This document shows, piece after piece, positions 5,511 through 31,197 of a stretch of 43,134 nt of DNA. The position numbers were made by a program, and so were the translations under genes. Location: contig JAFUPV010000015.1 of NCBI GenBank assembly GCA_017472605.1, forward strand, positions 1 to 43,134, read 5' to 3'. Position 1 is the stretch's first letter. Each line of letters starts with the position of its first letter. The stretch is from Lachnospiraceae bacterium. Its GTDB lineage: Bacteria > Bacillota > Clostridia > Lachnospirales > Lachnospiraceae. Below the pieces are notes generated by a model that did no database searches, was not told the origin of the DNA, and saw only the letters and a list, made by a program, of their open reading frames with translations.

Positions 5511-5646
5511 TCCGATCGAACATGCCACCGGCATGTTCGCCTGGATGTATAAACAATCCGATCGAACTGTCACCGGCATGTTCGCCTGGATGTATAAACA
5601 ATCCGATCGAACTGTCACCGGCATGTTCGCCTGGATGTATAAACAA
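5511..5646 (+). repeat. Three tandem copies of a 45-bp dispersed hairpin element
   Basis: Units at 5511-5556, 5557-5601 and 5602-5646 begin TCCGATCGAAC and end CTGGATGTATAAACAA. The first unit has one extra base that makes a perfect hairpin, GAACATGCC / GGCATGTTC around ACC. The other two units are identical to each other and have an imperfect version. The same element occurs singly at about 10001, 13461, 17032 and 31150. Confidence 0.92.
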
Positions 5647-5752
5647 TCTGTGAAGTCCGCCCATCAAACCTATGGACAGGATCTCACATCCATACCATAA
5701 CCATTCTCACGCTTTCTATGCACCCGACTCGCTGCCTGCGCCAATTCCAAAC

Positions 5753-5827
5753 AGAACCGGGAAAGACAACGGAAGCCTTTGGAAGTACTTAGGCTCTTCC
5801 AAAGGCTCCCCCGTCTTCCCCGGTTCT
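5753..5827 (-). terminator. Long hairpin downstream of dnaB
   Basis: An extended inverted repeat. The outer arms AGAACCGGG (5753-5761) and CCCGGTTCT (5819-5827) enclose AAGAC/GTCTT and a perfect 12-bp inner stem, AGCCTTTGGAAG / CTTCCAAAGGCT, with a 10-nt loop. It lies just past the dnaB stop codon and may end or protect the gdpP-rplI-dnaB transcript. There is no clear T-run, so intrinsic termination is uncertain. Confidence 0.5.
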
Positions 5828-5849
5828 GCGTTACCTGAAAATGGAACAA

Positions 5850-7187
5850 TCAATTGCCATAATCTTTGTTGGCAAACCTTGTCAGATCAGCCAGCCATAC
5901 CAATTCAATGGTTCCAACCGGACCATTACGCTGTTTTGCAATAATTACTTCGGCCAGTCCCTTGGACTCTGAATCTTTGTTATAGTACTCGTCACGATAC
6001 AGGAACATAACAACGTCCGCATCCTGCTCAATCGCACCGGACTCACGCAGGTCAGACAGCATCGGCCGGTGATCCTGACGCTGCTCACAGGCACGGGACA
6101 GCTGAGACAGCGCGATTACCGGCACATTCAGCTCTCTTGCCAGCGCTTTCAGAGAACGGGAAATGTCAGAAATTTCCTGCTGGCGGCTGTCTGTTCCGCG
6201 GCCGCTTCCGCTCATCAGCTGAAGGTAGTCGATGATGATGCAGTCCAGTCCGCCTTCCAGCTTGAACTTACGGCATTTTGACCGAAGCTCACCAACTGTA
6301 ATACCAGGGGTATCATCAATCAGAAGTCTTGTCTGCGCGATGACGCTGGAGCTTTCCACCAGCTGATCCCAGTCGCTGTCAGAAAGATTACCGGTACGCA
6401 TGCTCTGGCCATCGACACGGGATTCCATGGAAAGCATACGGTTGACCAGCTGTTCCTTGGACATCTCAAGCGAAAAGATGGCAACACTGTATCCGCCTGT
6501 TACGGTCAGATTCCGGGCCAGGTTCAGCACGAACGCGGTCTTACCCATGGAAGGACGTGCCGCAATCAATACCAGATCGGAACGCTGCAGACCGGAGGTC
6601 TGGCGATCCAGGTCCACAAAACCGGTTGCAAGTCCGGTTACCGTGCTCTTGGATTTGGATGCCTGCTCAATTTTGTTGATTACGTTAATGACCACATCAC
6701 GGATCGGCACAAAATCACTGGTCTGGCGATGCTCCAGCAAGCCGAAAATCTTTTTCTCCGTGTACTCCAGGATGTCATTGACTTCCTGTTTCTCCATGTA
6801 GCACTCGTTGGCAATCTCCTCCGTCTGACGGATCAGGCGGCGAAGCAGTGCCTTGTTGTAAACAATCTGCGCATACTGACGGATGTTGGCTGAAGTGGGA
6901 ACCATGTTCAGAAGTTCACGGAACGCCGCAATGCTGCAGAGCTCCGGCGGGATGTCCTTCGTCTTCAGACGGTCCTGAAGAGTCACCAGATCCGTCGGCT
7001 GTCCTTCGTTGTAAAGCTCGGAGATCGCTTCAAACATGACCCCATACTGATGCTGGTAGAAGTCATCCGCATGGATCATCTCGCAGGCGACCACAATTGC
7101 TTCTTTATCCAGAAGCATAGAACCAATTACTGACTGTTCCGCCTCCACGCTGTGAGGCAGCACCCGTTTAATTAACGCTTCTTCCAT
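5850..7187 (-). CDS. dnaB: Replicative DNA helicase DnaB (DnaC in Bacillus)
   Basis: 445 residues, normal for bacterial DnaB-type helicases. The N-terminal domain (about 1-105) starts with LPHSVEAEQSVIGSML. A linker follows, then the RecA-like ATPase domain with Walker A AARPSMGKT near residue 212, SLEMSKEQL, the Walker B region IIIDYLQLMSG and SDLRESGAIEQDADVV near the end. The hexameric enzyme unwinds DNA ahead of the replication fork and recruits primase. It is the last gene of the gdpP-rplI-dnaB operon, only 3 bp after rplI, the same order as in Bacillus and many Clostridia. Confidence 0.97.
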   Translation of the reverse strand: MEEALIKRVLPHSVEAEQSVIGSMLLDKEAIVVACEMIHADDFYQHQYGVMFEAISELYNEGQPTDLVTLQDRLKTKDIPPELCSIAAFRELLNMVPTSANIRQYAQIVYNKALLRRLIRQTEEIANECYMEKQEVNDILEYTEKKIFGLLEHRQTSDFVPIRDVVINVINKIEQASKSKSTVTGLATGFVDLDRQTSGLQRSDLVLIAARPSMGKTAFVLNLARNLTVTGGYSVAIFSLEMSKEQLVNRMLSMESRVDGQSMRTGNLSDSDWDQLVESSSVIAQTRLLIDDTPGITVGELRSKCRKFKLEGGLDCIIIDYLQLMSGSGRGTDSRQQEISDISRSLKALARELNVPVIALSQLSRACEQRQDHRPMLSDLRESGAIEQDADVVMFLYRDEYYNKDSESKGLAEVIIAKQRNGPVGTIELVWLADLTRFANKDYGN

Positions 7188-7190
7188 TTT

Positions 7191-7637
7191 TTACGCTTCC
7201 TGAACCTTTACCGTCAGCTGTGCGGTTACATCCTTGTGAAGCTTCACCGGAATGATTACCGTTCCGCAGGCGCGGATCGGATCCGCCAGAACCATTTTCT
7301 TCTTGTCAATCTCAAAGCCCAGCTGCGCTACACACGCCGCAGCGATTTCCTTTGTGGAAACGGAACCGAAAATCCGTCCGCCTTCACCAGCCTTTACCTT
7401 GACGGTTACTGCCTTCTCCTGAATCTTTTCTGCCAGCTGTTTTGCCTCTTCCAGCTTCTGAGCGGCGATTCTGTCCTCATTCGCCTTCTGCAGCTTCAGA
7501 TCATTCAGATTCTTTGCCGTTGCTTCAATTCCAAGCTTCTTGGGAAGAATGAAGTTTCTTGCATAGCCGTCGTTTACCTTTACGCGCTCGCCCTTCTTTC
7601 CAAGGGTCTTAACATCCTGTAATAAAATAATTTCCAT
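7191..7637 (-). CDS. rplI: 50S ribosomal protein L9
   Basis: 148 residues from the ATG at 7637, which is preceded by GCAGGAG; the frame is open to 7679 but the L9 family starts at [16 protein letters not shown]. The N-terminal globular domain contains the conserved [13 protein letters not shown], then a long connecting helix rich in Ala, Lys and Glu, then the C-terminal rRNA-binding domain (GRIFGSVS). L9 binds 23S rRNA near the L1 stalk and helps keep the reading frame. The gene sits 25 bp after gdpP and 3 bp before dnaB. Confidence 0.97.
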
Positions 7638-7662
7638 ATTCTCCTGCCTTTCTGTCTCCGGC

Positions 7663-9849
7663 TTACTTTGCCGGAACAATGTCTTTCTGCTGTTTCAGAA
7701 CTTCCTTCAGAAGCGTCTTCGCCTGCTCAACAGTCGTATCCTTCAGCTGCGCACCGGCCACACTGAGATGACCGCCGCCGCCCAGCTTCTCCATGATCAC
7801 CTGAACGTTCAGCTCGTCGATGGAGCGGGCGCTGATGTAAATCTGATGGTCATAGTCCGTCAGAACAAAGGACGCCTTGATGTTCTGGATTCCAAGCAGC
7901 TCGTTGGCCGCCTGAGCCGCGATCACAGTCGGACTCTGAGTCATGGCTGCCGGGCATACGCTGATCGCATAGCATCCCATGAACACTTCCATGCTTCGCA
8001 CAACCTCAGCCTTTGCCTTATAGTCTGACATGTCGTCGCGGAACAGCTTGCGGACTCTGGTGACATCGGCTCCGTTTCTGCGGAGGAACGCTGCCGCTTC
8101 AAAGGTTCGCACGCCTGTTTTATTCATAAAGTTGTTGGTATCTACAACAATACCTGCATAGAGCGCTTCTGAGTCTGTGGGTTTTAAGCGGATATCCTCA
8201 TCATAGTACTGGAGAATTTCCGAAACCATCTCAGAGGCGGAGGACGCATAGGGCTCCACATAGGACAGCACCGTGTTTTCGATGTAATCCTTTGTCTGGC
8301 GATGGTGGTCGATGACGACTACATTTCTTGCCAGATTGACCAGACCCGGACACTCGGAATAGCTTGCGCGGTTATTGTCCACAACAACAAGAAGGGTTCC
8401 GTGGTGGATCTTTCCAAATGCCGCACTGTTGTTAATGAACAGATCCGGTTCATAGTCCGGATTGTTTTTAAACCGCTCGATCAGCGGCTTGATGTTATTG
8501 GACACCGTGTCGAGAACGATGTGAGCGCGTTTTCTGGAAAAGACTGCCGCGCGATAGATTCCGGCTGCCGCACCGATACAGTCCGCGTCACTGATGTGAT
8601 GGCCCATGATCAGCACATCGTCTGCTGACTCAATCAGCTCACGAAGCGCCTGCGCCTTCACTCTTGCCTTTACACGGGTATTCTTTCCCTGGTTTTCCGC
8701 CTTGCCGCCATAGTAGGTGATGTTGTCCTTATTTTTCAAAACAACCTGATCGCCGCCGCGGCCAAGTGCCATGTCAATCGCCGCTCTCGCATATTCATAG
8801 TCCTTCGTATAGCTGCCGCCATTGACACCAAGGCCCATGCTGATGGTAACAGCGGTGGTGTTGCCGATGTTTACTTTCTTTACATCCTCGATCAGCGAGA
8901 AGTGATTTTCCTGCATTTCCAGAAGATGCTTATAGGTAAAAATCGCAAAATACTTATCATTTTCCAGGCGCTGGATGACGCCCTGGTAGCTGTTAATGTA
9001 CTTGTTGATCTGACGGTCAATCAGCGCAATCAGAAGTGTCTTTCGAACCTCCTCGATGCTGTCCAGCGCTTCATCGTAGTTATCCAGATAGATCAGGGCT
9101 GTTACCAGCTTTTCATCTTCGATCTGCTGTTTGCATGCCAGCATCTCCGTCTCATCGTAGAGATACACGGCGTACATCTGCGGGGACAGACTTTCATGCT
9201 CACCGGTATCCAGTACACTGGTCACAATGTCCTGCAGGGCAACTCCTTTGATCGTTACCTGATATTTTCTGTCCTGATAGGAGCTGTGGATCACCATCGG
9301 CTCTCCGTTTTTCGGATATTTCCGGTGAATATCCGGAAACAGCGACGTCAGATTCCTGTGGCCGCGGATCTCCGTCTTTGCGATTTCCTTAAATGCGGAA
9401 TTCATCCAGATCAGATAGCCCTTTTCATCCGTAACCGCATAGGGCACGTTCATTTCCTGCAGCAGCTGCTTCTGGATCTGGGCATAGCCGGCGCCGAAGG
9501 TAACCATGTCACTGCTGACACGGCGATAGTAGTACAGAGTCAAGCCGACCAGAATCAGAACGATCACGATGCAGATCACACTGGCAATTCCGCCTGCCAC
9601 CCAGTCAACAGCCGTGATGGCAGCACACAGAACCAGAAGGCCAATGCTGACCCAGATGGGCCAGTTCATGTAGGCACTGAGGCTTCCGCGGGCACGTTTT
9701 TCATATTCCCGGCGTTCTGCCCCTTTCTTTTTCCGCAGCGCCTTCTGCTCCGCCTCCGGAACGGACTGGTTCACCGGCTCCGGATGCAGGGAAGCTTCCG
9801 CCTGCTTTTCTTCTTTATTTTCATTTACTTCCGAAATATCTTTATTCAT
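7663..9849 (-). CDS. gdpP: Cyclic-di-AMP phosphodiesterase GdpP
   Basis: 728 residues from the ATG at 9849, placed after GGGAG; an upstream in-frame start at 9942 lacks support. After a charged N-terminal tail come two membrane helices (around residues 65-115), a degenerate PAS domain ([17 protein letters not shown]), a degenerate GGDEF domain, and the DHH/DHHA1 phosphodiesterase. The DHH part shows [14 protein letters not shown] and VVVIDHHRQ; the DHHA1 part shows [13 protein letters not shown]. The enzyme hydrolyses c-di-AMP to pApA at the membrane and so affects potassium and osmotic balance, wall stress and beta-lactam tolerance in Firmicutes. It opens the operon with rplI and dnaB and has its own promoter at 9952-9980. 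Confidence 0.95.
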
Positions 9850-10000: not shown

Positions 10001-10042
10001 TGTTTCCGTCACTGGTACGTCCGCCCGGACGTATCAAGAACA
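10001..10042 (+). repeat. Single copy of the dispersed hairpin element
   Basis: From GTCACTGG onward this matches the 31150 copy at nearly every position, with mostly C/T transitions, ending in GGACGTATCAAGAACA. In this copy the downstream part forms a perfect hairpin, TACGTCCG / CGGACGTA (10016-10033). It lies between the rpsR terminator and the gdpP promoter. Confidence 0.75.
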
Positions 10043-10083
10043 AAAAAACTGCCTGACCAGACGTTTCCGCCAGCCAGACAGTT
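10042..10083 (-). terminator. Intrinsic terminator of rpsF-ssb-rpsR
   Basis: On the minus strand the stem AACTGTCTG / CAGGCAGTT is followed directly by a run of T residues, 20 bp after the rpsR stop codon. Confidence 0.85.
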
Positions 10084-10102: not shown

Positions 10103-10366
10103 TTAATCAACGGTGTACGGCATCAGAGCGATGTGACGAGCTCTCTTGATAGCTACAGTCAGTGCTCTCTGGTGCTTTGCACAGGTTCCGGTGATTCTTC
10201 TCGGAAGGATCTTTCCTCTCTCGGAAACATACTTCTTCAGCAGTGCAACGTTCTTGTAATCGATTGTTCCGTTGTTCTCTCCACAGAATACGCAAACTTT
10301 CTTTCTTCTGCGCGGTACTCTTCTCTTCTGGGAGGAATCCGGTCTCTCTGTCTTATTGTAAGCCAT
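10103..10366 (-). CDS. rpsR: 30S ribosomal protein S18
   Basis: 87 residues from the ATG at 10366, which follows AAAGGAG; the frame extends upstream but the family starts at [10 protein letters not shown] basic N-terminus ([14 protein letters not shown]) is followed by the core [19 protein letters not shown] and TGTCAKHQR. The CxxC and the later Cys resemble the zinc-binding form of S18. S18 pairs with S6 on the platform of the small subunit, which fits its place in the rpsF-ssb-rpsR operon, about 70 bp after ssb. Confidence 0.97.
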
Positions 10367-13204: not shown

Positions 13205-13390
13205 ATGAATTTCACTTACGAAGTCGGTGACATCGTCACCTTAAAAAAGCCCCATCCCTGCAAAAGTCATGACTGGGAAATTCTCCGTGTCGGCATGGAT
13301 TTCCGTCTCCGCTGCATGGGCTGCAGCCATCAGGTCATGGTCCCGAGAAAACTGGTTGAAAAAAGTACAAAAGGAGTGCGTAAGCCGTGA
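13205..13390 (+). CDS. DUF951 domain-containing protein (YyzM-like)
   Basis: 61 residues. The pattern VGDIVTLKKPHPCKSHDWEILRVGMDFRLRC followed by MGCSHQVMVPR is characteristic of DUF951, a small conserved protein found across Firmicutes, often near ribosomal, ychF or parB genes. The paired Cys residues (CMGC plus an earlier Cys) suggest a small metal-binding or nucleic-acid-binding fold, but the function is unknown. GGAGG lies 8 nt before the ATG. It is a single-gene unit with its own promoter and a terminator that overlaps its last codons. Confidence 0.88.
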   Translation: MNFTYEVGDIVTLKKPHPCKSHDWEILRVGMDFRLRCMGCSHQVMVPRKLVEKSTKGVRKP

Positions 13391-13407
13391 ACTTACGCAC
13401 TCCTTTT
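13369..13407 (+). terminator. Intrinsic terminator containing the DUF951 stop codon
   Basis: A perfect 16-bp stem, AAAAGGAGTGCGTAAG / CTTACGCACTCCTTTT, with the loop CCGTGAA. The TGA stop codon of the gene is in the loop, so the last five codons form the left arm. Confidence 0.88.
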
Positions 13408-13460
13408 CCTGCGCGGGCGCCGCGACAGCGGGCAAAACCCGCGCAACGTGTGTTTCTCAT

Positions 13461-13507
13461 TGTTTATCCCTTCCGGCGAACGTGCAGTGACGCGTTTGGT
13501 CAGATCG
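13461..13507 (-). repeat. Single copy of the dispersed hairpin element (minus orientation)
   Basis: Read on the minus strand it runs ACCAAACGCGTCACTGCACG, then TTCGCCGGAAGGGATAAACAA, matching the family core and tail with one base missing after CACTG. It overlaps the last codons of the sirtuin gene. Confidence 0.7.
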
Positions 13508-14237
13508 TTCCGATGTCCTCACAGGCTGCTTCCAGCACTCCGCCAATCGATTCCCGGATTACCAGATCTGCCATGCCGTCCCGCGGTGTTGCGTCCCGGT
13601 TGATCAGAACCAGCTTTTTTCCACGGTAGTAGTCGATCAGACCAGCTGCCGGGTAGACGGTCAGCGACGTTCCGCCGACGATAAGAAGATCCGCGTTTCG
13701 GATGTGTGCGATGGAATTCTGCAGGATTTCGGAATCCAGTCCTTCTTCGTAAAGAACTACATCGGGCTTAATCCGGCCGCCGCAGCTGCATTTGGGAATG
13801 CCGGAAGAATTCAGAATTGCTTCCAGCCCGTAAAACGCGCCGCATTCCTCGCAGTAATTGCGCAGGACGCTGCCATGAAGCTCATAGACCGCCCTGCTTC
13901 CCGCCAGCTGATGAAGTCCGTCAATGTTCTGAGTCACTACTGCCTTCAGCTTTCCTGCCTGCTCCAGCTTTGCCAGGGCAAGATGGGCTTTGTTTTGCTT
14001 TGCGCCGGGGAACAGCATCTTGTTTCGGTAAAACCGGAAAAATTCCTCCGGACGCCGGCGATAGAAGGTGTGGCTCAGAATGGTTTCCGGCGGATAGTCG
14101 TATTCCTGATTATACAGGCCGTCTGTGCTCCGAAAGTCCGGAATGCTGCTTTCGGTTGACACACCGGCACCGCCAAAGAAAACGATCCGGCTGCTTTCCT
14201 GCACCCATTGTTTCAGTTTCATTACTTCTTCCGTCAT
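13500..14237 (-). CDS. NAD-dependent protein deacylase of the SIR2 family
   Basis: 245 residues, typical of a bacterial sirtuin. The NAD-binding Rossmann fold shows GGAGVSTESSIPDFRS near residue 22, TQNIDGLHQLAGS near 108 with the catalytic His in LHGS soon after, and GGTSLTVYPAAGL near 197. A small zinc module has CEECG and CSCGG. The enzyme removes acyl groups from lysines using NAD and makes nicotinamide. The neighbouring pncC gene acts on nicotinamide nucleotide, but it is 11 kb away and no link is implied. AGGGGG precedes the ATG, and a candidate 39-codon ORF ends 1 nt before it. Confidence 0.95.
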   Translation of the reverse strand: MTEEVMKLKQWVQESSRIVFFGGAGVSTESSIPDFRSTDGLYNQEYDYPPETILSHTFYRRRPEEFFRFYRNKMLFPGAKQNKAHLALAKLEQAGKLKAVVTQNIDGLHQLAGSRAVYELHGSVLRNYCEECGAFYGLEAILNSSGIPKCSCGGRIKPDVVLYEEGLDSEILQNSIAHIRNADLLIVGGTSLTVYPAAGLIDYYRGKKLVLINRDATPRDGMADLVIRESIGGVLEAACEDIGTI

Positions 14238-14369: not shown

Positions 14370-15311
14370 TTAATTCAGCTTGAACCCTTTTAACAAAGCG
14401 CCAAGACCGGTCGCAATCACCGTATCGTCCTTATACTCCGGAACGTCCTCGTCAACCTCATTGCTGGTTACCTCAGCCGCTTCCTTCATGCTCAGGCTGA
14501 TCTTGTTGTCGGCAATCTTGGTAATCTTTACCTTGATCACATCGCCTTCCTTCAGTACCTGGCTCGGATGCTTTAAGCGCTTGTCGCTGATCTGGGAGAT
14601 GTGGAGCAGACCGCTGATGCCGTCACCGATATCAACAAAGGCGCCATAGTCTTTCAGCTGCTCAACCTTACCCTCAACAATCGTTCCGACCGCATACTTG
14701 TTGATGCGCTTATTTTTCTCTTCCATTGCCTTCTGCTGAAGCAGTTCACGGGCAGAAACGATTACCTTCTTTTCCGCCTCATTCACCTCAGTAACAATGA
14801 AATCAATCTCCTGATTCAGGTAAGGAGTGGTATCCTCCACGTAGGTCAGAGCCAGTCTGGACGCCGGCATGAACGCGCGGATTCCCTCAACATAAACAAC
14901 GACTCCGCTCTTTACGATGCCGCCGACCTTTGCATGGTAAACCTTCTTTGTCTTTTTTGCTTCCTCCAGACGCTCCCACGCCAGCGTATCATCTGCATCC
15001 TTGCAGGACAGCAGCATGTTTCCGGCGCCGTCATCGGTCTTAATTACGGTTGCGGTGATCCTGTCACCAGGGAATACGCGCTCCGCCGCAACAAAAGTCG
15101 GGTCGTTGCTCATCTCCTCTGCCGGAATTCTTCCCGGAGCGTAGTACTCGAAATCGATGATCACATCTTTTTCGTTTACGTCAATTACCGTTCCCGTTAC
15201 AATGTCACCCGGACGGATTCTGCGGTAGGAAGCCTCCAGCAGATCCTTGTAATCTTCCATTGTCTCAACCTTTTCTTCCTGCACCTGGGCAGTGGTCTTT
15301 GTCTCTTCCAT
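14370..15311 (-). CDS. S1 RNA-binding domain protein (RpsA-like, three S1 repeats)
   Basis: 313 residues from the ATG at 15311, preceded by AAAGGAAA; a GTG six codons earlier would overlap that site. Three S1 OB-fold repeats occur at about residues 30-105 (IRPGDIVTGTVIDVNEKDV), 115-190 (KVYHAKVGGIVKSGVVVYVEG) and 200-275 (VGTIVEGKVEQLKDYGAFVDIG, GLLHISQIS). The first two are more divergent than the third. Clostridial genomes carry such short S1 proteins in place of the six-repeat S1 of E. coli; they bind mRNA and may act at the ribosome. The acidic tail and Glu-rich start are also typical. The gene lies 142 bp after the BlaI-type gene. Confidence 0.85.
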   Translation of the reverse strand: MEETKTTAQVQEEKVETMEDYKDLLEASYRRIRPGDIVTGTVIDVNEKDVIIDFEYYAPGRIPAEEMSNDPTFVAAERVFPGDRITATVIKTDDGAGNMLLSCKDADDTLAWERLEEAKKTKKVYHAKVGGIVKSGVVVYVEGIRAFMPASRLALTYVEDTTPYLNQEIDFIVTEVNEAEKKVIVSARELLQQKAMEEKNKRINKYAVGTIVEGKVEQLKDYGAFVDIGDGISGLLHISQISDKRLKHPSQVLKEGDVIKVKITKIADNKISLSMKEAAEVTSNEVDEDVPEYKDDTVIATGLGALLKGFKLN

Positions 15312-15340
15312 GGTCTGTTTCCTTTCCACTTAACTTTCAG

Positions 15341-15457
15341 CGGCTGCAGTCTGTCTGCAGCCCATTTCGATTCCGGTCACCGGGCCGGTTCTCATCTTTC
15401 ATCAGCTGCAGCCTGCCTGCAGTCCATTTCGATTCCGGTCACCGGACCGGTTCTCAT
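15341..15457 (-). repeat. Two copies of a 55-bp hairpin-rich sequence
   Basis: Copies at 15341-15395 and 15403-15457 differ at a handful of positions. Each has a small hairpin, GCTGCAG / CTGCAGC or CTGCAGT, with a 5-nt loop and then ATTCCGGTCACCGG followed by CCGGTTCTCAT. The GTCACCGG...GTTC core resembles the dispersed element but the tail differs. They fill the space between the BlaI-type and S1 genes. Confidence 0.85.
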
Positions 15458-15834
15458 TTTTCCAGTTCACGAAGCTGCTCAAGAAGAGCCGCGCTGTCCT
15501 TCTTCGGAACTTTTTTCACAGTCAGAGCCGCACTCATCAGCTCGCTGACGGATCCGCCGAACCAGAAATCAATGAACTGTCTGGTCTGCTCTTCTGTGAA
15601 TTTTTTGTTGTTGATTGCGGACGAATAGTAGAACGTGCGTCCGCTTCTTGTGCCTGTCACATATCCCTTTTCAATCAGGTGGGCAATGAATGTGCAGACA
15701 GTTGAACGTTTCCAGTCCTTCTGGTATTTCTCTTCAAGAATGTCCATGATGCGGACAAGAGAAATTGGTTCCTTTGACTCCTGGATGCAGCGAAAAACAA
15801 GCATTTCGCAATCGGTAATATCAGAAAATAGCAT
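15454..15834 (-). CDS. BlaI/MecI/CopY family transcriptional repressor
   Basis: 126 residues, the family length. An N-terminal winged helix-turn-helix begins ITDCEMLVFRCIQE and continues with WKRSTVCTFIAHLIEKGYVTGTRSGRTFYY, the recognition helix and wing. The C-terminal part (EEQTRQFIDFWFGGSVSELMSAAL) is the dimerisation segment. These repressors control beta-lactam, copper or other stress genes and are usually cleaved by a BlaR1-type sensor peptidase or released by metal. No BlaR1-like gene is next to it here, so its targets and signal are unknown. GGAGG precedes the ATG. It probably controls itself. Confidence 0.9.
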   Translation of the reverse strand: MLFSDITDCEMLVFRCIQESKEPISLVRIMDILEEKYQKDWKRSTVCTFIAHLIEKGYVTGTRSGRTFYYSSAINNKKFTEEQTRQFIDFWFGGSVSELMSAALTVKKVPKKDSAALLEQLRELEK

Positions 15835-16991: not shown

Positions 16992-17031
16992 AAAAGGAGA
17001 TCCCCGTCTTTTTCAACGGACATCTCCTTTT
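16992..17031 (-). terminator. Terminator-like hairpin between fba and the membrane protein gene
   Basis: On the minus strand AAAAGGAGATGTCCGT pairs with ACGGGGATCTCCTTTT (one mismatch) around an 8-nt loop and ends in TTTTGTAT. The left arm resembles the downstream ribosome binding region AAGGAGGTGTCC. It probably ends most fba transcripts, with some read-through into 16975. Confidence 0.7.
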
Positions 17032-17080
17032 CTCGCTTATGCATTCAGTCAGATCTGCCAGTGACAGATCCACGGATCGT
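17032..17080 (-). repeat. Single copy of the dispersed hairpin element (minus orientation)
   Basis: On the minus strand: GATCTG, then TCACTGG, then CAGATC, then TGACTGAATGCATAAGCGA. The arms GATCTG/CAGATC form a perfect stem that differs in sequence from the other copies, while the tail is kept. It lies in the 3' untranslated region of fba. Confidence 0.75.
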
Positions 17081-17128: not shown

Positions 17129-17995
17129 TTATTCAGCCTTGCCAACAGAACCGAACAGTTCCATCTTCTCACGTACAGTAGCCTTGATTGCCTCGGTTCC
17201 CGGAGCCAGAAGCTTACGCGGGTCAAAGCCCTTGCCCTTCTGATCCTTGCCAGCCTCGATATATTCACGGGTCGCTGCAGCGAAGGACAGCTGGCACTCA
17301 GTGTTTACGTTGATCTTGGATACGCCAAGAGAGATAGCCTTCTTGATCATCTCTTCCGGAATTCCGGTACCGCCGTGAAGTACAAGCGGCATGTCGCCAA
17401 CCTTCTCGCTTACTGCAGCCAGAGTCTCAAAGCTCAGTCCCTGCCAGTTTTCCGGATATACACCGTGGATGTTTCCGATACCTGCAGCCAGCATGGTTAC
17501 GCCCAGATCAGCAATTGCCTTGCACTCGTTCGGATCTGCGCACTCGCCCATACCAACAACGCCGTCTTCCTCGCCGCCGATGGAACCAACCTCAGCCTCA
17601 AGGGACAGACCCATTGCCTTACATACAGAAACCAGCTCCTTGGTCTTTGCAACGTTCTCATCAATCGGGAAGTGAGAACCGTCAAACATGATGGAGGAGA
17701 AGCCAGCCTTGATGCACTTGTAGCATCCCTCGTAGCTGCCGTGATCCAGATGAAGGGCAACCGGAACGGTAATGTTCATCTCTTCGATCATTGCCTTTAC
17801 CATTGCTGCAACGGTACCAAAACCGGTCATATACTTTCCTGCCCCCTCAGAAACACCAAGGATAACCGGGCTCTTTAACTCCTGAGCAGTAGCAAGGATT
17901 GCCTTTGTCCACTCCAGATTGTTGATATTGAACTGACCAACTGCATATTTGCCGGCTTTTGCTTTCTTTAACATCTCTTCTGCTGTTACTAACAT
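17129..17995 (-). CDS. fba: Class II fructose-1,6-bisphosphate aldolase
   Basis: 288 residues, full length for the zinc-dependent class II enzyme of Firmicutes. It opens LVTAEEMLKKAKAGKYAVGQFNINN. Metal-binding and catalytic segments are ALHLDHGS near residue 83, EAEVGSIGGEEDGV near 135, and PLVLHGGTGIP with ISLGVSKINVNTE near 205-235. It splits fructose 1,6-bisphosphate into dihydroxyacetone phosphate and glyceraldehyde 3-phosphate in glycolysis and does the reverse in gluconeogenesis. The ATG has AAGGAGGT upstream. It has its own strong promoter at 18055-18083 and is divergent from the small membrane protein at 18186. Confidence 0.97.
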   Translation of the reverse strand: MLVTAEEMLKKAKAGKYAVGQFNINNLEWTKAILATAQELKSPVILGVSEGAGKYMTGFGTVAAMVKAMIEEMNITVPVALHLDHGSYEGCYKCIKAGFSSIMFDGSHFPIDENVAKTKELVSVCKAMGLSLEAEVGSIGGEEDGVVGMGECADPNECKAIADLGVTMLAAGIGNIHGVYPENWQGLSFETLAAVSEKVGDMPLVLHGGTGIPEEMIKKAISLGVSKINVNTECQLSFAAATREYIEAGKDQKGKGFDPRKLLAPGTEAIKATVREKMELFGSVGKAE

Positions 17996-24465: not shown

Positions 24466-26037
24466 TTATACGGTAACTTTCTGCGTGCGGTTTGATTGAG
24501 AACAGCCGGACATGCACTGTCTGGATGCCTTCTCCCAGATCAGTTCCACTTCCAGAACAAGCCTCGTTCTTTCTGTCACCCTGCAGCTCTCGTCCATCCG
24601 GTATCCGGGGATCCATAAAATCCGGTTCCCTTCTGCCAGAAGAGGCCAACTGCTCCGCGCCCAGACCGGCATTCCGGAATCGATCAGGCACTGCTTCAGC
24701 TTCCTGTGTTTTCCGGCACCGACACCGATGAGGTCTCCCGCCATCCGGTTCCGCAGAATAAGTCTATTTTTTATTGTATCATAATCGAACCGGTTTACAC
24801 AACAATTTTGCGGTACTTTTTTTGCATTCTTAACCGGAAAAACACGGATCCGGACTGAAAACTCCGGTACTTCCCGTTTTTCCTCCGCTGACAGCCAAAG
24901 AAAATCGCCGGATACAAGAACGTGCACACCACCCGGCAGCTCCATTCTGCGTCCGCTCTGTCCCTTCGCCAGCTCAATCACCGACTCCAGATGTTTTCTG
25001 GAAATGTCCTTCAGTCCGGCTCCCAGCTCTCTGAGAGAATGGCGGATCAGATAGACAAGAAGAAGACGGGGCTGTTCCAAAAACAGCTTCCGGTTCATCC
25101 GGACTGCCGGCGGCGCAAGCAGCCGCCCGATCTGTTCCCGCAGTGCCTCCGCGGTGCTGCCTGCTTCCGTTCCGTTTGCCGCTGCCGCCGCTCCTCCCGC
25201 TTCCGCTCCGTTTCCCGCTGCCGCCGCTCCTCCTGCTTCCGTTCCGTTTCCCGCTGCCGCCGCTCCTCCCGTTTCCGTTCCGTTTCCCGCTGCCGCCGCC
25301 CGTCCCGTTTCCTCCAGAAACAGCCGCTCTGCCTCACGGCAGAACCAGGCATCTGCTTCCTGCAGATCCGCCGCTGCCGCCGCAATGTGTTCCACTGCCC
25401 GCTCATTGCATGCCGAGGTCAGCTCCGGCAGCAGATTTCTCCGGATCCGGTTGCGCAGATAAGTATCCTCCAGATTGGTCCGGTCTGTCTGCCAGCCGAT
25501 TCCCTCCCTGATCAGATAGTCTTCAATCTCCTGTCTGCGTACGCAGAGAAACGGCCGGATGATCCGGTCTCTTCTTGCTGCTATCCCGGCCATTCCTTTC
25601 AGACCGCTTCCCCGTGCCAGATTCATCAGCACCGTTTCCGCCAGATCATCCATGTGGTGAGCCACTGCGATCCGGTCATAGTCCAGCTGCCTCCGCACTT
25701 CTTCCAGACGCTGATACCGGATCATGCGTCCGGCTTCCTCCAGCGAAAGCCGGTTTTCTCTGGCCATCTGGGGCACGTCCTCCACGAAACAGAAAAGACG
25801 CACGCCCCATTCCCGGCAAAGCTTCTCCACATAGCCCATATCCTCAAAAGCCTCTTCCCCGCGGATTCCATGGTGAACATGAACCGCTGCCAGCTTCAGA
25901 TCCCACTCGCCGCGCAGTCCGCAGAACACATGCAGAAGCGCCACCGAATCCGCTCCGCCGGAAACACCGATGACCACACCGTCCCCCGGCTCAAACAGCA
26001 TTTCTTTTCTGGAAAATTCTGAAATCCTCTTTCTCAT
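24466..26037 (-). CDS. tilS: tRNA(Ile)-lysidine synthetase with an internal repeat insertion
   Basis: 523 residues, slightly long for the family. The PP-loop SGGADS is at 26-31, followed by VHVHHGIRGEEA and VAHHMDDLAETVLMNLARGSGLKG, the catalytic core that binds ATP. The enzyme puts lysine on C34 of tRNA-Ile(CAU), allowing reading of AUA; it is essential in most bacteria. Residues about 244-291 consist of four 12-residue units rich in Ala and Gly, an insertion between the catalytic core and the C-terminal tRNA-binding domains. The C-terminus (KHRKLKQCLIDSGMP...RILWIPGYRMD) is intact, so the gene looks functional. It lies 61 bp after spoIIE. Confidence 0.95.
   Translation of the reverse strand: MRKRISEFSRKEMLFEPGDGVVIGVSGGADSVALLHVFCGLRGEWDLKLAAVHVHHGIRGEEAFEDMGYVEKLCREWGVRLFCFVEDVPQMARENRLSLEEAGRMIRYQRLEEVRRQLDYDRIAVAHHMDDLAETVLMNLARGSGLKGMAGIAARRDRIIRPFLCVRRQEIEDYLIREGIGWQTDRTNLEDTYLRNRIRRNLLPELTSACNERAVEHIAAAAADLQEADAWFCREAERLFLEETGRAAAAGNGTETGGAAAAGNGTEAGGAAAAGNGAEAGGAAAAANGTEAGSTAEALREQIGRLLAPPAVRMNRKLFLEQPRLLLVYLIRHSLRELGAGLKDISRKHLESVIELAKGQSGRRMELPGGVHVLVSGDFLWLSAEEKREVPEFSVRIRVFPVKNAKKVPQNCCVNRFDYDTIKNRLILRNRMAGDLIGVGAGKHRKLKQCLIDSGMPVWARSSWPLLAEGNRILWIPGYRMDESCRVTERTRLVLEVELIWEKASRQCMSGCSQSNRTQKVTV
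25163..25306 (-). repeat. 36-bp minisatellite inside tilS (four units)
   Basis: Units start at 25163, 25199, 25235 and 25271 and differ by a few bases. Each encodes a 12-residue block resembling GGAAAAGNGTEA. The unit length is a multiple of three, so gain or loss of copies keeps the frame. Confidence 0.93.
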
Positions 26038-27824: not shown

Positions 27825-27848
27825 AAAAAGGCCCTGCTTTCGCAGGGC
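27825..27848 (-). terminator. Intrinsic terminator of the yabP-yabQ-divIC unit
   Basis: On the minus strand the stem GCCCTGC / GCAGGGC with loop GAAA is followed by CTTTTTG, 14 bp past the DivIC-like stop codon. Confidence 0.88.
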
Positions 27849-27862
27849 ACAGATGATCCGTT

Positions 27863-28171
27863 TTATTCACTTTTGAAAATAATTTCGTTTTCCTGAACAA
27901 GCCCGAGACGCGCTTTCGCGTACCATTCGGCAAATTCAGTGGTCTTTGTGTACTCGCGGTATTCTTCCAGCTCTGCAGCACGTTTTTCTTCTTCTGCGAT
28001 TTTCAGCTCCAGTTCCTGACGCGTTTTTTCATATTCGCTGTTACGCGCCTGCAGACGGAAGCCTTCCCAGAAAGCAAGTACCGTCAGCACGGCAACTACA
28101 CTTGCTACAAGAAGAATGCTCCTGCGATTCGCCCGGTTTCTTGACACTGTCCTGCCCGCCAACCTGATCAC
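27863..28171 (-). CDS. divIC: Septum formation initiator, DivIC/FtsB family
   Basis: 102 residues starting at GTG 28171, which overlaps the yabQ stop codon as GTGA; a TTG at 28162 with better spacing from AGGAG is an alternative. A basic N-terminus is followed by a membrane helix (about 18-36, ILLVASVVAVLTVLAFWEGF), a coiled coil (about 40-75, rich in Glu, Lys and Leu), and the C-terminal segment FAEWYAKARLGLVQENEIIF, which is the family signature. DivIC joins FtsL and DivIB at the septum. The position between yabQ and spoIIE matches Bacillus. Confidence 0.9.
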   Translation of the reverse strand: MIRLAGRTVSRNRANRRSILLVASVVAVLTVLAFWEGFRLQARNSEYEKTRQELELKIAEEEKRAAELEEYREYTKTTEFAEWYAKARLGLVQENEIIFKSE

Positions 28172-28596
28172 TCCTTGTGTATCTGAATTTTCTTTTTTAT
28201 TCTAACCGCTTTCTTTCTTTTTTGCAAGACCTCTCTGACATTTTCCCCAAATATTTTTCCACACCGCTTCCCTATCCCCAGTCCTTTGTCGAAAAGTCCA
28301 CAGACAATCCGGCTTGGACCAAGATGATACATGCTCATCCCCAAAATCAGCCCGACCAGCGCAAACAGCCTTGGCGTTCCATTGTTTTCCCGAAACAGCA
28401 GACCGAACATCATCACGCTGCCGACGAGCCAGAAAAACAGATCCTCCAGCGAGACGAAAAAACGGGAATGTTTCAGAATCCGGCGGAGCAGAAGCAGTCC
28501 GTCATAGCCCATCCGCAGGCAGAAACCGAGCCAGAACGCATGAAGGAAAAAATGGATCTCCCACGCCACTCCGGTCAACGCAGAAGCCGTTTCCAA
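28168..28596 (-). CDS. yabQ: Spore cortex biosynthesis protein YabQ
   Basis: 142 residues starting at TTG 28596, 8 nt after GGGGGA and inside the end of yabP (22-bp overlap). Four to five membrane helices are visible; the first (IHFFLHAFWLGFCLRMGYDGLLLLR) and the segment FFVSLEDLFFWLVGSVMMFGLL are typical of YabQ. The C-terminus is basic (KKRKKAVRIKKKIQIHK). In Bacillus, YabQ is made in the mother cell under sigma-E and is needed for cortex formation. Order and overlap with yabP and divIC support the call. Confidence 0.9.
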   Translation of the reverse strand: METASALTGVAWEIHFFLHAFWLGFCLRMGYDGLLLLRRILKHSRFFVSLEDLFFWLVGSVMMFGLLFRENNGTPRLFALVGLILGMSMYHLGPSRIVCGLFDKGLGIGKRCGKIFGENVREVLQKRKKAVRIKKKIQIHKE

Positions 28597-28856
28597 AAGG
28601 ATTCCCCCTGTTTGCGATATCCATTGTCCTGATATTCCATGCTGCTTACCAGTCCCTCCAGCTCCACCAGACCGGCTTCCAGCGTCAGCTCACGGATATG
28701 CAGATTTTCCCCGCGGATTTCCAGATCACCCAATTCCGTCTTCAGCAGAACAATATGTTCATCAAAAGCCACCACATCCCGGATACCGGTCATGTGACAG
28801 CTCTTCCTGCGGTCCATGCTGACACTGTGCTCACTTTCGATCAGCTTCTCTTCCAT
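28575..28856 (-). CDS. yabP: Sporulation protein YabP
   Basis: 93 residues from the ATG at 28856, preceded by GAGGAGG; the open frame reaches 28988, but the family starts here. Segments DRRKSCHMTGIRDVVAFDEHIVLL and GDLEIRGENLHIRELTLEAG, then GLVSSMEY, match the YabP/YqfC family of spore coat or cortex morphogenesis proteins. In Bacillus it is a sigma-E-dependent mother-cell gene next to yabQ. It lies 128 bp downstream of rqcP, and its end overlaps yabQ. I see no convincing promoter in the 128-bp gap. Confidence 0.92.
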   Translation of the reverse strand: MEEKLIESEHSVSMDRRKSCHMTGIRDVVAFDEHIVLLKTELGDLEIRGENLHIRELTLEAGLVELEGLVSSMEYQDNGYRKQGESFWKRLLR

Positions 28857-28984
28857 AACAAAAACACGCCTCCTCTCCCGAACCTGGGACCGGCAGTAAT
28901 CGGATGCCGATACCGGCTTCTCCTGCCATTGTCCCGTATAATCCAGTATATTGGAAAGCGTGTCTGAATAGCACACAAAAATGA

Positions 28985-29224
28985 TCACAGATAGCGATAC
29001 ATTTCTTTTGCTTCATCTTTCTTTGCAGTTTCCTCGATGCTCACCACCTCAACCTTAACGGTTCTTGTACCAAAACCGATCTCGATGATGTCGGAAACCT
29101 TCACGTCGGCAGAGGCTTTTGCCACCTTGCCATTGATCAATACCCTGCCTGCGTCGCATGCCTCATTGGCAACGGTTCTTCGTTTGATCAGGCGGGATAC
29201 TTTCAGGTATTTATCTAATCTCAT
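28985..29224 (-). CDS. rqcP: RqcP, S4-domain protein of ribosome quality control
   Basis: 79 residues forming one S4 RNA-binding domain: MRLDKYLKVSRLIKRRTVANEACDAGRVLINGK, then KASADVKVSDIIEIGFG. The family (YabO, HslR-like) binds the obstructed 50S subunit with tRNA at the P site and works with RqcH to add alanine tails to stalled chains. It lies just after the HU gene (8 bp) and before yabP, as in Bacillus, and is probably in one transcript with HU. Confidence 0.92.
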   Translation of the reverse strand: MRLDKYLKVSRLIKRRTVANEACDAGRVLINGKVAKASADVKVSDIIEIGFGTRTVKVEVVSIEETAKKDEAKEMYRYL

Positions 29225-29232
29225 ATCACCAG

Positions 29233-29508
29233 TTATGCGTTCATCGCATCCTTTAAAGCCTTACCCGGCTTGAACTTCGGGCTCTTGGAAGCCGGAATGA
29301 TCATGGTCTCGCCGCTCTTCGGGTTTCTTCCCTCTCTCTCCTTGCGCTCAGCTACCTCAAAGGTACCAAAGCCAACAAGAGCAACCTTTCCGCCATTCTG
29401 TAACTCTTCTGTAACTACCTCAGCGAAAGCCTCAAGAACCTTCTCTGCGTCTGTCTTCTTCACATCACACTTATCAGCAATTGCTGCTACTAATTCCTTC
29501 TTATTCAT
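29233..29508 (-). CDS. HU family DNA-binding protein
   Basis: 91 residues from the ATG at 29508, with AGGAGG 6 nt upstream; the frame extends to 29547 but the family starts at MNKKELVAAIADK. The beta-arm with VALVGFGTFEVAERKEREGRNP and the C-terminal ASKSPKFKPGKALKDAMNA are standard. HU packages the nucleoid and assists replication and repair. Its promoter is at 29566-29594, and rqcP follows. Confidence 0.97.
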   Translation of the reverse strand: MNKKELVAAIADKCDVKKTDAEKVLEAFAEVVTEELQNGGKVALVGFGTFEVAERKEREGRNPKSGETMIIPASKSPKFKPGKALKDAMNA

Positions 29509-29565
29509 GTCATTCCTCCTAAACTGATTGACTGCGTGCGTTTTCAACGCATGTCCCGCTTAATA

Positions 29566-29594
29566 GTTATAATAGGAATCAGCCGCTTTGTCAA
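29566..29594 (-). promoter_or_regulatory. Sigma-A promoter of the HU gene
   Basis: On the minus strand TTGACA (29589-29594) and TATAAC (29566-29571) with a 17-bp spacer, about 58 bp upstream of the ATG. The leader contains a small hairpin, TGCGTT / AACGCA. Confidence 0.8.
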
Positions 29595-29654
29595 GAGATT
29601 TGCCCGTGTTCTGCAGAAAATACCGGGCAGGTTTCGTCATTTTCCGGTTCCTGC

Positions 29655-30203
29655 TTATCCCTCCATCTGCCGTCCGAGAAACATGGCTGCACAGGCTGCC
29701 GCTTTCTGCTCCGATTCCGTGAAACGGACACGCTGTTCCCGGCTGTAGAGAAGAACCGCTCCGGCACTGTCACCCTCCACGACAATCGGATAAATAATCT
29801 GCGCACTGTAGCCCTCCTCATCGCCCTGTACCAGCGGGATCATCCGGTCGTTCTTTCCGGACTGACCGCTGCTTTCCCGGTTGACAATGAATTCCTCCAG
29901 CTCCCTGCTGATCGGTTTTCCCAGCAGCTCCTTCTTTCCGCCGCCTGCTGCCGCAATGATCTGATCGCGGTCACAGACTGCCACCTTCTGATTCAGGGAG
30001 GAAGCAAGGCTTTCCGCATACTGCTTTGCAAATCCTCCCAGCTCTGCCATAGGCGAATATTTCTTCAGAATTACTTCCCCTTCTTTGTCTGTAAAGATCT
30101 CCAGCGGAGTCCCTTCGTGAAGACGCATTGTCCTTCTGATTTCCTTTGGTATGACAATTCTTCCCAGATCATCAATTCTTCTTACAATTCCTGTAGCTTT
30201 CAT
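29655..30203 (-). CDS. spoVT: Stage V sporulation protein T, AbrB-type regulator
   Basis: 182 residues, full length. The N-terminal AbrB swapped-hairpin DNA-binding domain is MKATGIVRRIDDLGRIVIPKEIRR followed by LHEGTPLEIFTD. Residues about 60-180 form a GAF domain (VAVCDRDQIIAAAGGGKKELLGKPIS, SAQIIYPIVVEGDSAGAVLLYS). SpoVT adjusts sigma-G-dependent gene expression in the forespore and affects spore germination properties. The ATG has GGAGGAA upstream. A candidate sigma-G promoter lies at 30253-30283. Confidence 0.95.
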   Translation of the reverse strand: MKATGIVRRIDDLGRIVIPKEIRRTMRLHEGTPLEIFTDKEGEVILKKYSPMAELGGFAKQYAESLASSLNQKVAVCDRDQIIAAAGGGKKELLGKPISRELEEFIVNRESSGQSGKNDRMIPLVQGDEEGYSAQIIYPIVVEGDSAGAVLLYSREQRVRFTESEQKAAACAAMFLGRQMEG

Positions 30204-30252
30204 GTATCAATTCCTCCATGTACTTTTCTTTTCCTTTTCTGGAAGTAGTATC

Positions 30253-30283
30253 TGTAAATGGAGGAATTTTATGCGTTTATTCA
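30253..30283 (-). promoter_or_regulatory. Candidate sigma-G promoter of spoVT
   Basis: On the minus strand TGAATA (30278-30283) and CATTTACA (30253-30260), spacer 17 bp, resemble sigma-G elements (TGAATA and CATACTA). Bacillus spoVT is a sigma-G gene. The -10 match is only partial. Confidence 0.4.
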
Positions 30284-30408
30284 TTTACATAAACTAACAG
30301 TTTCCATTTCTTAGTTCTTTCACCTTTACCAATACTTTTTCCAACGGCATACACAGTTCGATCGGATATTCTTCAAAAAGATTTTTTCGATTCCCTACAC
30401 AGAAATGA

Positions 30409-30437
30409 TTGAAGTGATGGTAAAATTATGATACAAT
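30409..30437 (+). promoter_or_regulatory. Sigma-A promoter of hpt
   Basis: TTGAAG (30409-30414) and TACAAT (30432-30437) with a 17-bp spacer, about 88 bp before the ATG. Confidence 0.75.
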
Positions 30438-30524
30438 AAAAAAAATAAGGACGGTTACATACAGCGAATCCGGCAAATTTCCTTTGTCCGAAACCGTTAC
30501 AATCACAAAAACAGGAGCTGCGCA

Positions 30525-31079
30525 ATGAATACGAATGAGTCCATCGAAAAATTTAACAGTAAAATCAAGCGCGTGATCATCACCGAAGAGGAGATCCGTG
30601 CGGCAATCCAGAAAGCTGGAAAAGAAATCAGCGATTCCTATGACGGACGCCCGATCCTGCTGGTAAGCATCTTAAAAGGTGCCTTTGTTTTTATGGCCGA
30701 TCTCTGCCGTGCCATTACCGTTCCCTGTGAAATTGGTTTCATGTGCGCAAAAAGCTATTACAGCGGCACTGTTTCTGTCGGCGCAGTGAAGATCACCATG
30801 GATCTGGAGCAGGACATCAGCAAGTACCATGTCATTCTTGTGGAGGACATCATTGACACCGGAAGAACCTTAAATGATGTCTGCAATCTGCTGAAAGCCC
30901 GTAATCCGCTTTCTCTGCGTGTTGTTACTCTGCTGGATAAGCCGTCCAGAAGAAAGGTGGATTTCAAAGCAGATCTGTCTCTGTTCACCATCCCGGACTA
31001 TTTTGTGATTGGCTATGGTCTGGACTGCGCGGAATATTACCGCAACCTGCCTTACATCGCGGAATACAACGAAGAGTAA
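30525..31079 (+). CDS. hpt: Hypoxanthine phosphoribosyltransferase
   Basis: 184 residues, standard length. The PRPP-binding signature VILVEDIIDTGRTL lies near residue 105, and the substrate regions LVSILKGAFVFMADLCRAI and KPSRRKVDFKADLSLFTIPDYFVIGYG are complete. It converts hypoxanthine (and guanine) with PRPP into IMP or GMP in purine salvage. AGGAG precedes the ATG. In Bacillus hprT lies between tilS and ftsH; here it has moved to the other side of the sporulation cluster, as a single divergent gene with its own promoter. Confidence 0.96.
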   Translation: MNTNESIEKFNSKIKRVIITEEEIRAAIQKAGKEISDSYDGRPILLVSILKGAFVFMADLCRAITVPCEIGFMCAKSYYSGTVSVGAVKITMDLEQDISKYHVILVEDIIDTGRTLNDVCNLLKARNPLSLRVVTLLDKPSRRKVDFKADLSLFTIPDYFVIGYGLDCAEYYRNLPYIAEYNEE

Positions 31080-31149
31080 AGAATCTGGTCCGGCATATCT
31101 GTCGGAATGAAGGTCGGTTTTTCACCTTAGAATAACTTCCATATATAAA

Positions 31150-31197
31150 TCCGACCAAACGTGTCACTGGCACGTTTGTCTGGATGCATAAACAACA
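31150..31197 (+). repeat. Single copy of the dispersed hairpin element
   Basis: Starts TCCGACC, then the hairpin AAACGTGTC / GGCACGTTT around ACT, then TGTCTGGATGCATAAACAAC. It lies in the 3' untranslated region of hpt, just before the terminator. The stem sequence differs from the 5511 copy but pairs as well. Confidence 0.85.

Follow-up and report, generated by a model that had tools for sequence, protein, structure and literature searches.

Our analysis of a 43,134-nt stretch of DNA from a Lachnospiraceae bacterium (assembly GCA_017472605.1, contig JAFUPV010000015.1; hereafter the window) centers on a family of short intergenic hairpin repeats, termed R. With modest confidence, we favor the reading that R is a non-autonomous mobile DNA hairpin, which is similar to the repetitive extragenic palindromes (REPs) and inserts on the 5′ side of stem-loops. 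The Lachnospiraceae are common gut Firmicutes; the described REPs come mostly from Proteobacteria, and those of the GTAG kind are tied to a RAYT transposase. The initial annotation of the window had reported seven dispersed copies of a hairpin of about 45 bp, and proposed that they represent either a family of the REP or BIME (bacterial interspersed mosaic element) type or a small mobile element without a gene of its own. The latter proposal is well supported by the at least 133 places that R occupies in the host genome, a 46-bp difference between two paralogous modules and the existence of a homologous family outside the host genus. A search of a library of open-access papers found no description of R.

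The host genome (G000) is 3.68 Mb in size, its assembly being 95.24% complete. A pattern search of it allowing up to three mismatches recovered 49 copies, against none for the reversed control pattern, and a covariance model (R1) built from 26 of the copies found by pattern across the genome gave 138 matches at E ≤ 0.1. Upon removing five opposite-strand readings these amount to at least 133 distinct places, a figure that is a lower bound because 150 of 2558 candidates were scored and one of the window copies (at 17033) was missed. Thus, the covariance-model search that had been suggested as a check of the initial annotation turned up many further copies beyond the window.

The R unit is a 46-nt imperfect hairpin with the apex GTC-ACY-GGC followed by a tail, and its consensus on the structured strand is TCCGAYCGAACRTGTCACYGGCAYGTTCGYCTGGATGYATAAACAA. 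It folds as 4 bp, a 2×2 internal loop, 10 bp, a triloop (ACY) and an 11-nt tail, such that the imperfect stem comprises 14 bp, the palindrome spans only the first 35 nt and most of the unit folds on one strand. A U·G wobble adjoining the closing C–G pair near the apex is kept in 69 of 80 copies in the host genome; as this pair would become A·C on the other strand, we take the + strand of R to be the structured one. The consensus of the 5′ foot is AA-TCCGA; no GTAG tag is conserved at this position, the tetranucleotide being restricted to the tail and to a minority of copies. The tail, of the form TGY-ATAA-RCA plus a final A, is folded into a mini-hairpin, newly described here, with one covarying pair. 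This pair, between model columns 40 and 45, shows the top mutual information among all 1128 column pairs (TA 30, CG 25, TG 3 and CA 8 in 80 copies; Fisher p 4.6e-8, uncorrected for kinship between copies). The other two tail pairs, T38–A47 (62/80, with T–G in 14) and G39–C46 (62/80, with G–T in 7), display almost no double changes. A search of the window with 4227 Rfam covariance models at the gathering score recovered only tRNA and nothing over R.

The arms of the hairpin vary between copies by compensating changes. In an alignment (A3) of 118 R1 matches fitted to the model, including 11 opposite-strand readings, 60 cells have changed on both sides of a pair as opposed to 18.1 ± 3.4 in shuffles that take no account of relatedness, with none of 500 shuffles reaching this value; likewise, nine pairs show a both-side change against 5.5 in the shuffles (2/500 as high). 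The same is seen without recourse to an alignment: 80 distinct ungapped 48-nt copies contain 36 both-side cells, compared with 6–21 when the partner is slid by 1–3 columns. Two further alignments were set aside, namely the combined two-genus alignment A5, in which gaps break the pairing, and A4, which contains opposite-strand duplicates. The covarying stems noticed in the initial annotation are thereby borne out, compensatory cells lying above all 500 shuffles with relatedness uncorrected, and the chance origin of the pairing that it had named as grounds for refutation did not materialize.

The placement of R was assessed on 107 copies that remained after dropping the 11 opposite-strand matches from the 118, using gene calls from our own simple codon-usage caller rather than a published tool. 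In none of the 107 does the overlap with a predicted gene exceed 20 nt. With the flanking genes taken in the reading direction of R, 43 copies are in −/−, 29 in +/− and 27 in +/+ settings, six lie in divergent gaps and two have one neighbor missing; hence, the 70 copies flanked by co-directional genes divide into 43 antisense and 27 sense. R avoids divergent gaps (6 of 101 gaps with R vs 38 of 216 without; Fisher p 0.005), and convergent gaps make up 26/101 of those with R vs 17/216 of those without. Where the 5′ neighbor reads towards R, 35 of 56 copies begin within 25 nt of its stop codon. As a separate observation, where the 5′ neighbor reads away, 11 of 49 copies are no more than 30 nt away from the predicted start of that gene, for example at window 5494–5511 and at positions 2545–2562 of locus L063.

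The strongest placement rule is that R usually sits on the 5′ side of another stem-loop. Exclusion of tandem copies and of those scoring below 35 bits or shorter than 44 nt left 74 for this comparison. In 58 of them, the 3′ end of R is followed within 10 nt by the start of a stem-loop with a folding energy of −12 kcal/mol or lower, compared with 192 of 1500 randomly drawn intergenic positions; the 5′ flank of R has one in 18/74. Many of these 3′ stem-loops look terminator-like by eye, and A-runs before their stems are frequent but confounded by the tail of R itself. As the adjoining stem-loop is a palindrome, R may lie sense after one gene or antisense after the next, both of which are common. 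Neighboring R units within 200 nt of each other are head-to-tail in all 18 pairs, with no inverted pair, and are spaced by 46 (14 pairs), 45 (three) or 48 nt (one); taking out these 18 tandem neighbors leaves 115 separate places. The base preceding R is an A in 58 of 62 copies without an upstream R. A side observation on arrays comes from locus L137 (2513–2704), where four near-identical 45-nt variant units with a shortened tail suggest local array growth.

A presence/absence difference of a whole unit is seen in locus L073, in which a module encoding a small hydrophobic protein, presumably akin to a type I toxin, is tandemly duplicated (2150–2477 and 2570–2897; 88% identity over 329 bp). Copy 1 reads ...ATAATAAACTCCGGGAAA|CCGAAGCCAGGCGGCTTACCC, and copy 2 reads ...ATAATAAATCCGGGAAA|R, 46 bp|CCGAAGCCAGGCGGCTTACCC. 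At its core the junction is CCGGGAAA|CCGAAGCCAGGCGGC in the one vs CCGGGAAA|46-bp R|CCGAAGCCAGGCGGC in the other, the extra segment lying immediately 5′ of a stem-loop. The automatic alignment of the paralogs places a 45-column gap here, the copies also differing by 1 nt upstream, and the flanks match on both sides, the left less well, with a junction ambiguity of at most 2 nt (AA). No target-site duplication beyond this 0–2 nt ambiguity was detected at the one site seen. The simplest reading of these sequences is that R was inserted into copy 2.

We also uncovered, from sequence comparisons, a homologous family with its own covarying arms in a second genus, represented by genome G132. A loose core pattern run against 397 genomes of the bacterial family gave 33 matches in the host genome and 13 in G132, with none for the reversed control in either; the remaining genomes gave 0–3 and their controls 0–2. 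G132 has 48 matches at up to three mismatches to its own 39-nt consensus (control 0), with a tandem spacing of 39 nt. Its arms contain 33 both-side cells vs 14.2 ± 2.8 in shuffles (0/500 as high), the U·G wobble near the apex is kept in 29 of 31 copies, and 22 of 28 non-tandem copies have a 3′ stem-loop, as opposed to 164/560 shuffles. A model of this family, R2, scoring about 15 candidates per genome, matched only G132 among the 397 genomes.

In other relatives R is sparse. When 40 relatives were scanned with R1 (two of them, G001 and G002, congeners of the host), about 149 candidates being scored per genome, none gave a match at E ≤ 0.01; among 299 family genomes, with about 20 scored in each, R1 recovered one or two weak matches in each of four other genera, the alignments of which retain the R layout. 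Tails in the other genera take the forms AUGC-UUCG-GCAA, AUGC-UAAG-GCAU, AUAC-UUC-GUAA and AUAC-UAAG-GCAU, the last with an A·C mismatch; the L161 relative has a mini-hairpin with a UUCG loop. Folding of the 168 nt around the L160 copy does not reproduce the hairpin, and an Rfam search of L160–L162 and L173 at E ≤ 1 returned one weak match, elsewhere in L161. A 20-nt pattern derived from the low-copy relatives recovered 119 stretches from a collection of 84,980 species. By their record titles, the 80 matches listed comprise 63 from Clostridia, four labeled merely "bacterium" and 13 from other groups; five of the matches listed are from Schaedlerella arabinosiphila. Twelve of the 13 other-group stretches resemble ordinary terminators, being near-perfect palindromes flanked by A and T tracts, and the 13th (L307, from a metagenome bin titled Bacteroidales) has the stretch that is also present in G206; among the Clostridia stretches, some few, such as L309 and L323, are likewise terminator-like palindromes. 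Loci that we judged from their titles or by eye to lie outside the family were removed, 14 for the mini-hairpin test and 13 for the stem-loop test, and it is in L307, L309 and L323 that these two sets of exclusions differ. In this wider set the 3′ stem-loop is weaker (26/66 vs 77/660 shuffles; 4/13 in the other groups), and so is the mini-hairpin, with 45 of 65 tails reaching the score cut vs 42% of shuffles and several lacking a 3-bp hairpin by the rule used. The exact species-type pattern gave no match in genome-contig and viral-contig collections, from which the host genome itself may be left out. Separately, three genomes of three genera (G129, G154 and G181) share an identical 26-nt stretch, GTCACTGGCATGGTTTAATCCTGTAT, whose arms are not R-like.

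These observations can be brought together in a model in which a trans-acting enzyme that acts on single-stranded hairpins, HUH-like in its logic, mobilizes R. Such an enzyme would open a strand 5′ of a stem-loop, following an A, and join the hairpin-plus-tail segment at the break, so that R would be moved from one stem-loop foot to the next. Any suitable stem-loop would serve as a target, so that insertion would occur next to terminators and other stem-loops alike, in either orientation with respect to the gene, and R itself as a target would give rise to the exact 45–46-nt head-to-tail arrays. This one rule would account for where units begin and end, for the arrays, for the association with stem-loops and for the presence/absence site, and the 43 antisense and 27 sense copies would be expected, given that the target would be a DNA palindrome read from either strand. 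By analogy, the rule resembles the logic of the single-strand hairpin transposases of IS200/IS605 and the REPs; as no such transposase gene was found in the host, the enzyme might have been lost, be missing from the assembly or belong to another family. What the comparisons show is the structure of R, its covariation and copy number, its position and orientation with respect to stem-loops, a single precise 46-bp presence/absence difference and the homologous family of the other genus; that movement rather than selection placed the copies, by way of a single-strand intermediate, cleavage following an A and such an enzyme, is what we infer. Sense copies may have a regulatory RNA role, yet the abundance of antisense copies and the lack of R in the congeners argue for insertion as the origin of the placement.

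Several observations weigh against the mobile-hairpin model. The search for an enzyme, covering the Y1_Tnp, RAYT and RVT_1 families, found no candidate, and a comparison of the host loci with 30 G132 loci for a recurring neighbor gene revealed some homologous neighbors, none of them consistent. There is a single presence/absence site, it lies between 88%-identical paralogs rather than between strains and it lacks a duplication beyond 0–2 nt; moreover, precise loss of R from copy 1 of L073 would look identical. Synteny with the two congeners is present at the loci sought as empty sites, and their intergenic DNA is too diverged to align (most matches 69–80% identical). A T-run follows the stem, on the repeat strand, in only 24 of the 58 3′ stem-loops, and therefore not all stem-loops adjoining R are terminators; hairpins on its 5′ side, too, are somewhat over background. 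In G132, two of five covariation measures are near the shuffles (pairs with change, 7 vs 5.5; pair types, 18 vs 17.2), 6 of 33 copies overlap a predicted gene, and the tail (CATGGAAATA) shows no clear mini-hairpin.

A more far-reaching version of the same idea, which we put forward tentatively, is that there is a widespread Lachnospiraceae superfamily of two-hairpin mobile elements, whose enzyme, targeted by structure and unrelated to the known REP transposases, would recognize the GTC-ACY-GGC apex and insert the element 5′ of any stem-loop, with terminators and R as equivalent targets. These elements would have been amplified independently in at least two genera, their arms drifting by compensating changes. 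A search for a gene recurring beside the repeats in 80 listed loci gave clusters of at most eight (ABC-transporter ATPases by eye), followed by four and three.

Among the alternatives, R could be a cis-acting RNA element of 3′ untranslated regions, functioning in stability, anti-termination or processing, that is selected beside terminators, with movement being secondary or absent. The proximity of 35 of the 56 copies to the stop codon of a gene reading towards them, the fixed structured strand, the apex conserved across genera and the UUCG-loop mini-hairpin of the L161 relative are all in keeping with such a function. We nevertheless consider it unlikely, given that 43 of the 70 co-directional copies are antisense and their structured strand hence falls outside the mRNA of those genes, that R1 finds no copy in the two congeners, that two of the window copies are decayed or halved and that one of the two tandem paralogs of L073 is without R.

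It is also conceivable, if quite improbable, that R is a true REP family whose RAYT was lost or lies in an unassembled part of the genome, for which the incompleteness of the assembly leaves room. R resembles the GTAG REPs, with their REPtrons, REPINs and BIMEs, in being a short, extragenic, imperfect hairpin with about 100 or more copies and one structured strand, and in being lineage-specific, avoiding divergent gaps and forming mosaics with other repeats. It differs from them in lacking a conserved GTAG and any detected RAYT or Y1 gene in its host, in having only head-to-tail neighbors, in the mini-hairpin of its tail and in its usual place 5′ of another stem-loop; as PMC3733652 and PMC8266576 define them, the GTAG REPs have a GTAG left unpaired at the hairpin's 5′ foot, a genomic RAYT flanked by the repeats and a predominance of inverted dimers. 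According to the sections of PMC3733652 on these families, GTAG and CGTC REPs are mostly arranged head-to-head or tail-to-tail; the CGTC REPs are described with stems of 8–9 bp, loops of 4–5 nt, a CGTC at the end and dimers that are mainly head-to-head. R is like the latter, as portrayed there, in being REP-like without a dedicated transposase, and unlike them in its 14-bp stem, 3-nt loop, want of a terminal CGTC and head-to-tail arrangement. The same sections report REPs inside palindromes (GTAG-15 of A. variabilis, GTAG-23 of T. roseum and CGTC-1 of H. neapolitanus), which offer a precedent for palindrome-associated hairpin repeats; those, however, lie within the palindrome, whereas R adjoins a stem-loop and mostly does so 5′ of it. 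Transposase-less REP families are put forward as an open question in PMC3733652, and the word "firmicutes" is absent from the main text of that paper.

The assignment of R to the REP/BIME type in the initial annotation can therefore be retained for its size, extragenic position, imperfect hairpin and mosaic with a second repeat, but not for the tag, the transposase or the arrangement; in BIMEs, REPs alternate in orientation with other repeats mixed in, and R does adjoin a second repeat but its neighboring units do not alternate. The linked transposase of the REP-associated type that it recommended looking for did not emerge, no Y1 transposase or RAYT being found in the 95.24% complete host assembly. 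Y1_Tnp (PF01797) had no matches in the host genome, the same profile being positive in 5 of 14 control genomes. RAYT (NF047646) gave one sub-threshold match of 17.5 bits, antisense to a frame that by eye is threonine-aldolase-like, and we rejected RAYT as the enzyme of R on both these counts. Elsewhere, Y1 genes were found in G001 (three, in a genome with no R1 match) and in G132 (one); the latter is an IS200-type TnpA by eye, scores 36 of the 80 bits required by the RAYT cut-off and has one R-like copy upstream in its locus, all of which speak against a true REP system. With its covariation, its placement rule, a single clean filled/empty site and no RAYT detected, this REP-like family of the Lachnospiraceae gives searches for the missing enzyme something definite to aim at.

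A further alternative, which strikes us as very improbable, is that R is an RNA-mediated element, similar to the short interspersed nuclear elements, copied by the reverse transcriptase of a group II intron. Group IIC introns insert beside terminator stem-loops in one orientation, and class C introns inserting after such stem-loops would occupy the position of R on the other strand. The host genome has three reverse transcriptase matches, of which two are group II introns and the third is at L145. The intron at about 680–2555 of L090 has a frame-disrupted reverse transcriptase and lies between an R hairpin and a stretch like the second repeat family (Y, described below), directly after the R hairpin read on its other strand; the intron of L142 follows an ordinary terminator-like stem-loop, and we provisionally assign both to class C from their insertion site. 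R hairpins therefore seem to serve as terminator-like targets, and in L090 R looks like target rather than cargo. R shares stem-loop-side placement and a single orientation with the group IIC introns, but differs from them in its 46-nt length, in having no intron RNA match in Rfam and in lacking a reverse transcriptase of its own; moreover, G001 has such an intron without an R1 match. We rejected a retron or retroelement origin of R, as it is no part of these reverse transcriptase elements.

Spread of R solely by slippage and recombination between existing copies, without any mobility, merits hardly any credence, as local duplication of the kind implied by the four near-identical L137 units would have to be set against 115 separate places without tandem neighbors, the scarcity of long shared flanks among the fetched loci and the 46-bp difference in L073. 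As a mobile hairpin, R is like the miniature inverted-repeat transposable elements in being short, dispersed, non-autonomous and noncoding; it is unlike them in having at most a 0–2-nt duplication (at one site), a palindrome over only the first 35 nt and no related full-length element found in the search restricted to Y1_Tnp, RAYT and RVT_1.

The second intergenic repeat family, Y, is about 97 nt long, begins with AACGAGAAGAAACACGC and ends with GCGTAAA, with 24 nhmmer matches in 539 kb of fetched loci. R and Y adjoin each other in several loci in both orders, Y then R and R then Y, and intergenic mosaics therefore form. One copy of Y is at 4984–5080 of L073, and another, in the window (13366–13464, − strand; nhmmer E 2e-11 and fold), lies directly downstream of the R copy at 13460, its 3′ part running into a terminator stem-loop. 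A Y-like stretch at 5721–5735 (+) of the window is a short pattern match and not an nhmmer match. A hammerhead-like motif in Y was dropped as it is unconserved between copies.

Within the window all seven places noticed in the initial annotation are genuine, with the qualifications that the copy it placed at 10001 is a half copy starting at 10009 and that the one at 13460 is decayed. Of the ten rows given by the R1 scan of the window, six are copies, two read a hairpin on the opposite strand and two score weakly (38361, E 0.11; 38828, E 0.72); most ranges include two flanking columns preceding the unit, and the copies at 31150 and 5511, being among the 26 model sequences, match by construction. 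The 46-nt unit at 31150–31195 (+; R1 31148–31195, E 7.4e-21; fold −16.6 kcal/mol, z −3.4) lies 70 nt past the stop codon of gene 30525–31079 (+). Its tail mini-hairpin, TGC-ATAA-ACA, is at 31185–31194 (+; model columns 38–47), the third pair being C–A here and T–A or C–G in most copies. From 3 nt after the unit, a stem-loop of −26.6 kcal/mol occupies 31199–31244 between convergent genes, unflagged by our simple terminator scan.

Three units form a head-to-tail array on the + strand, at 5511–5556 (R1 5509–5556, E 1.2e-19; fold −19.5 kcal/mol, z −4.8), 5557–5601 (45 nt, with one stem base deleted; R1 5557–5599, E 1.5e-12, and 5555–5601 in the genome scan) and 5602–5646 (45 nt; R1 5600–5646, E 2e-17). 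The first begins 17 nt from the predicted start (5493) of an opposite-strand gene (4918–5493). A promoter perceived by eye on the reverse complement of the tandem units was dropped, the only promoter-like site of the scan being at 5835, outside the units.

On the − strand, the copy at 17033–17076 (R1 17033–17078, E 2.3e-7; fold −13.2 kcal/mol, z −1.6), with the arms GATCTG/CAGATC, lies between gene 17129–17995 (−) and a stem-loop ending in T residues at 16992–17031 (−; fold), which directly follows its tail. The decayed copy at 13460–13504 (−; R1 13460–13506, E 1e-6), at the stop codon of gene 13500–14237 (−), no longer forms the stem, its fold (z +1.15) being no better than shuffles; a terminator-like stem-loop of 18 pairs in the terminator scan (13369–13407, −) comes after this copy and the adjoining Y. 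The half copy at 10009–10045 (+) consists of the apex, right arm and tail; a degenerate half-unit pattern matches it exactly at 10009–10034, with none expected by chance. It has no R1 match at E ≤ 1, folds alone into a different hairpin, and is followed by a stem-loop at about 10047–10083 (by eye) and then the 3′ end of gene 10103–10366 (−). The statement that the arms still pair thus fails for these two, the half copy being without its left arm and the decayed one folding no better than shuffles.

All copies are outside predicted genes, as had been claimed, that at 13460 overlapping the end of gene 13500–14237 by a few nucleotides, and those at 31150, 17033 and 13460 each lie between a stop codon and a stem-loop. 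As for the copies said to sit just before terminators, the scan flags the stem-loop at 13369–13407 and part of that beside 17033 (17003–17020), with nothing flagged beside 31150, 10009 or the triple array. Two unrelated tandem repeats were also recorded in the window: a 62-nt direct repeat (15329–15452; 87% identical) with CTGCAG-type palindromes, between genes 14370–15311 (−) and 15454–15834 (−), and a 36-nt repeat (25149–25328) inside the predicted gene 24466–26001 (−).

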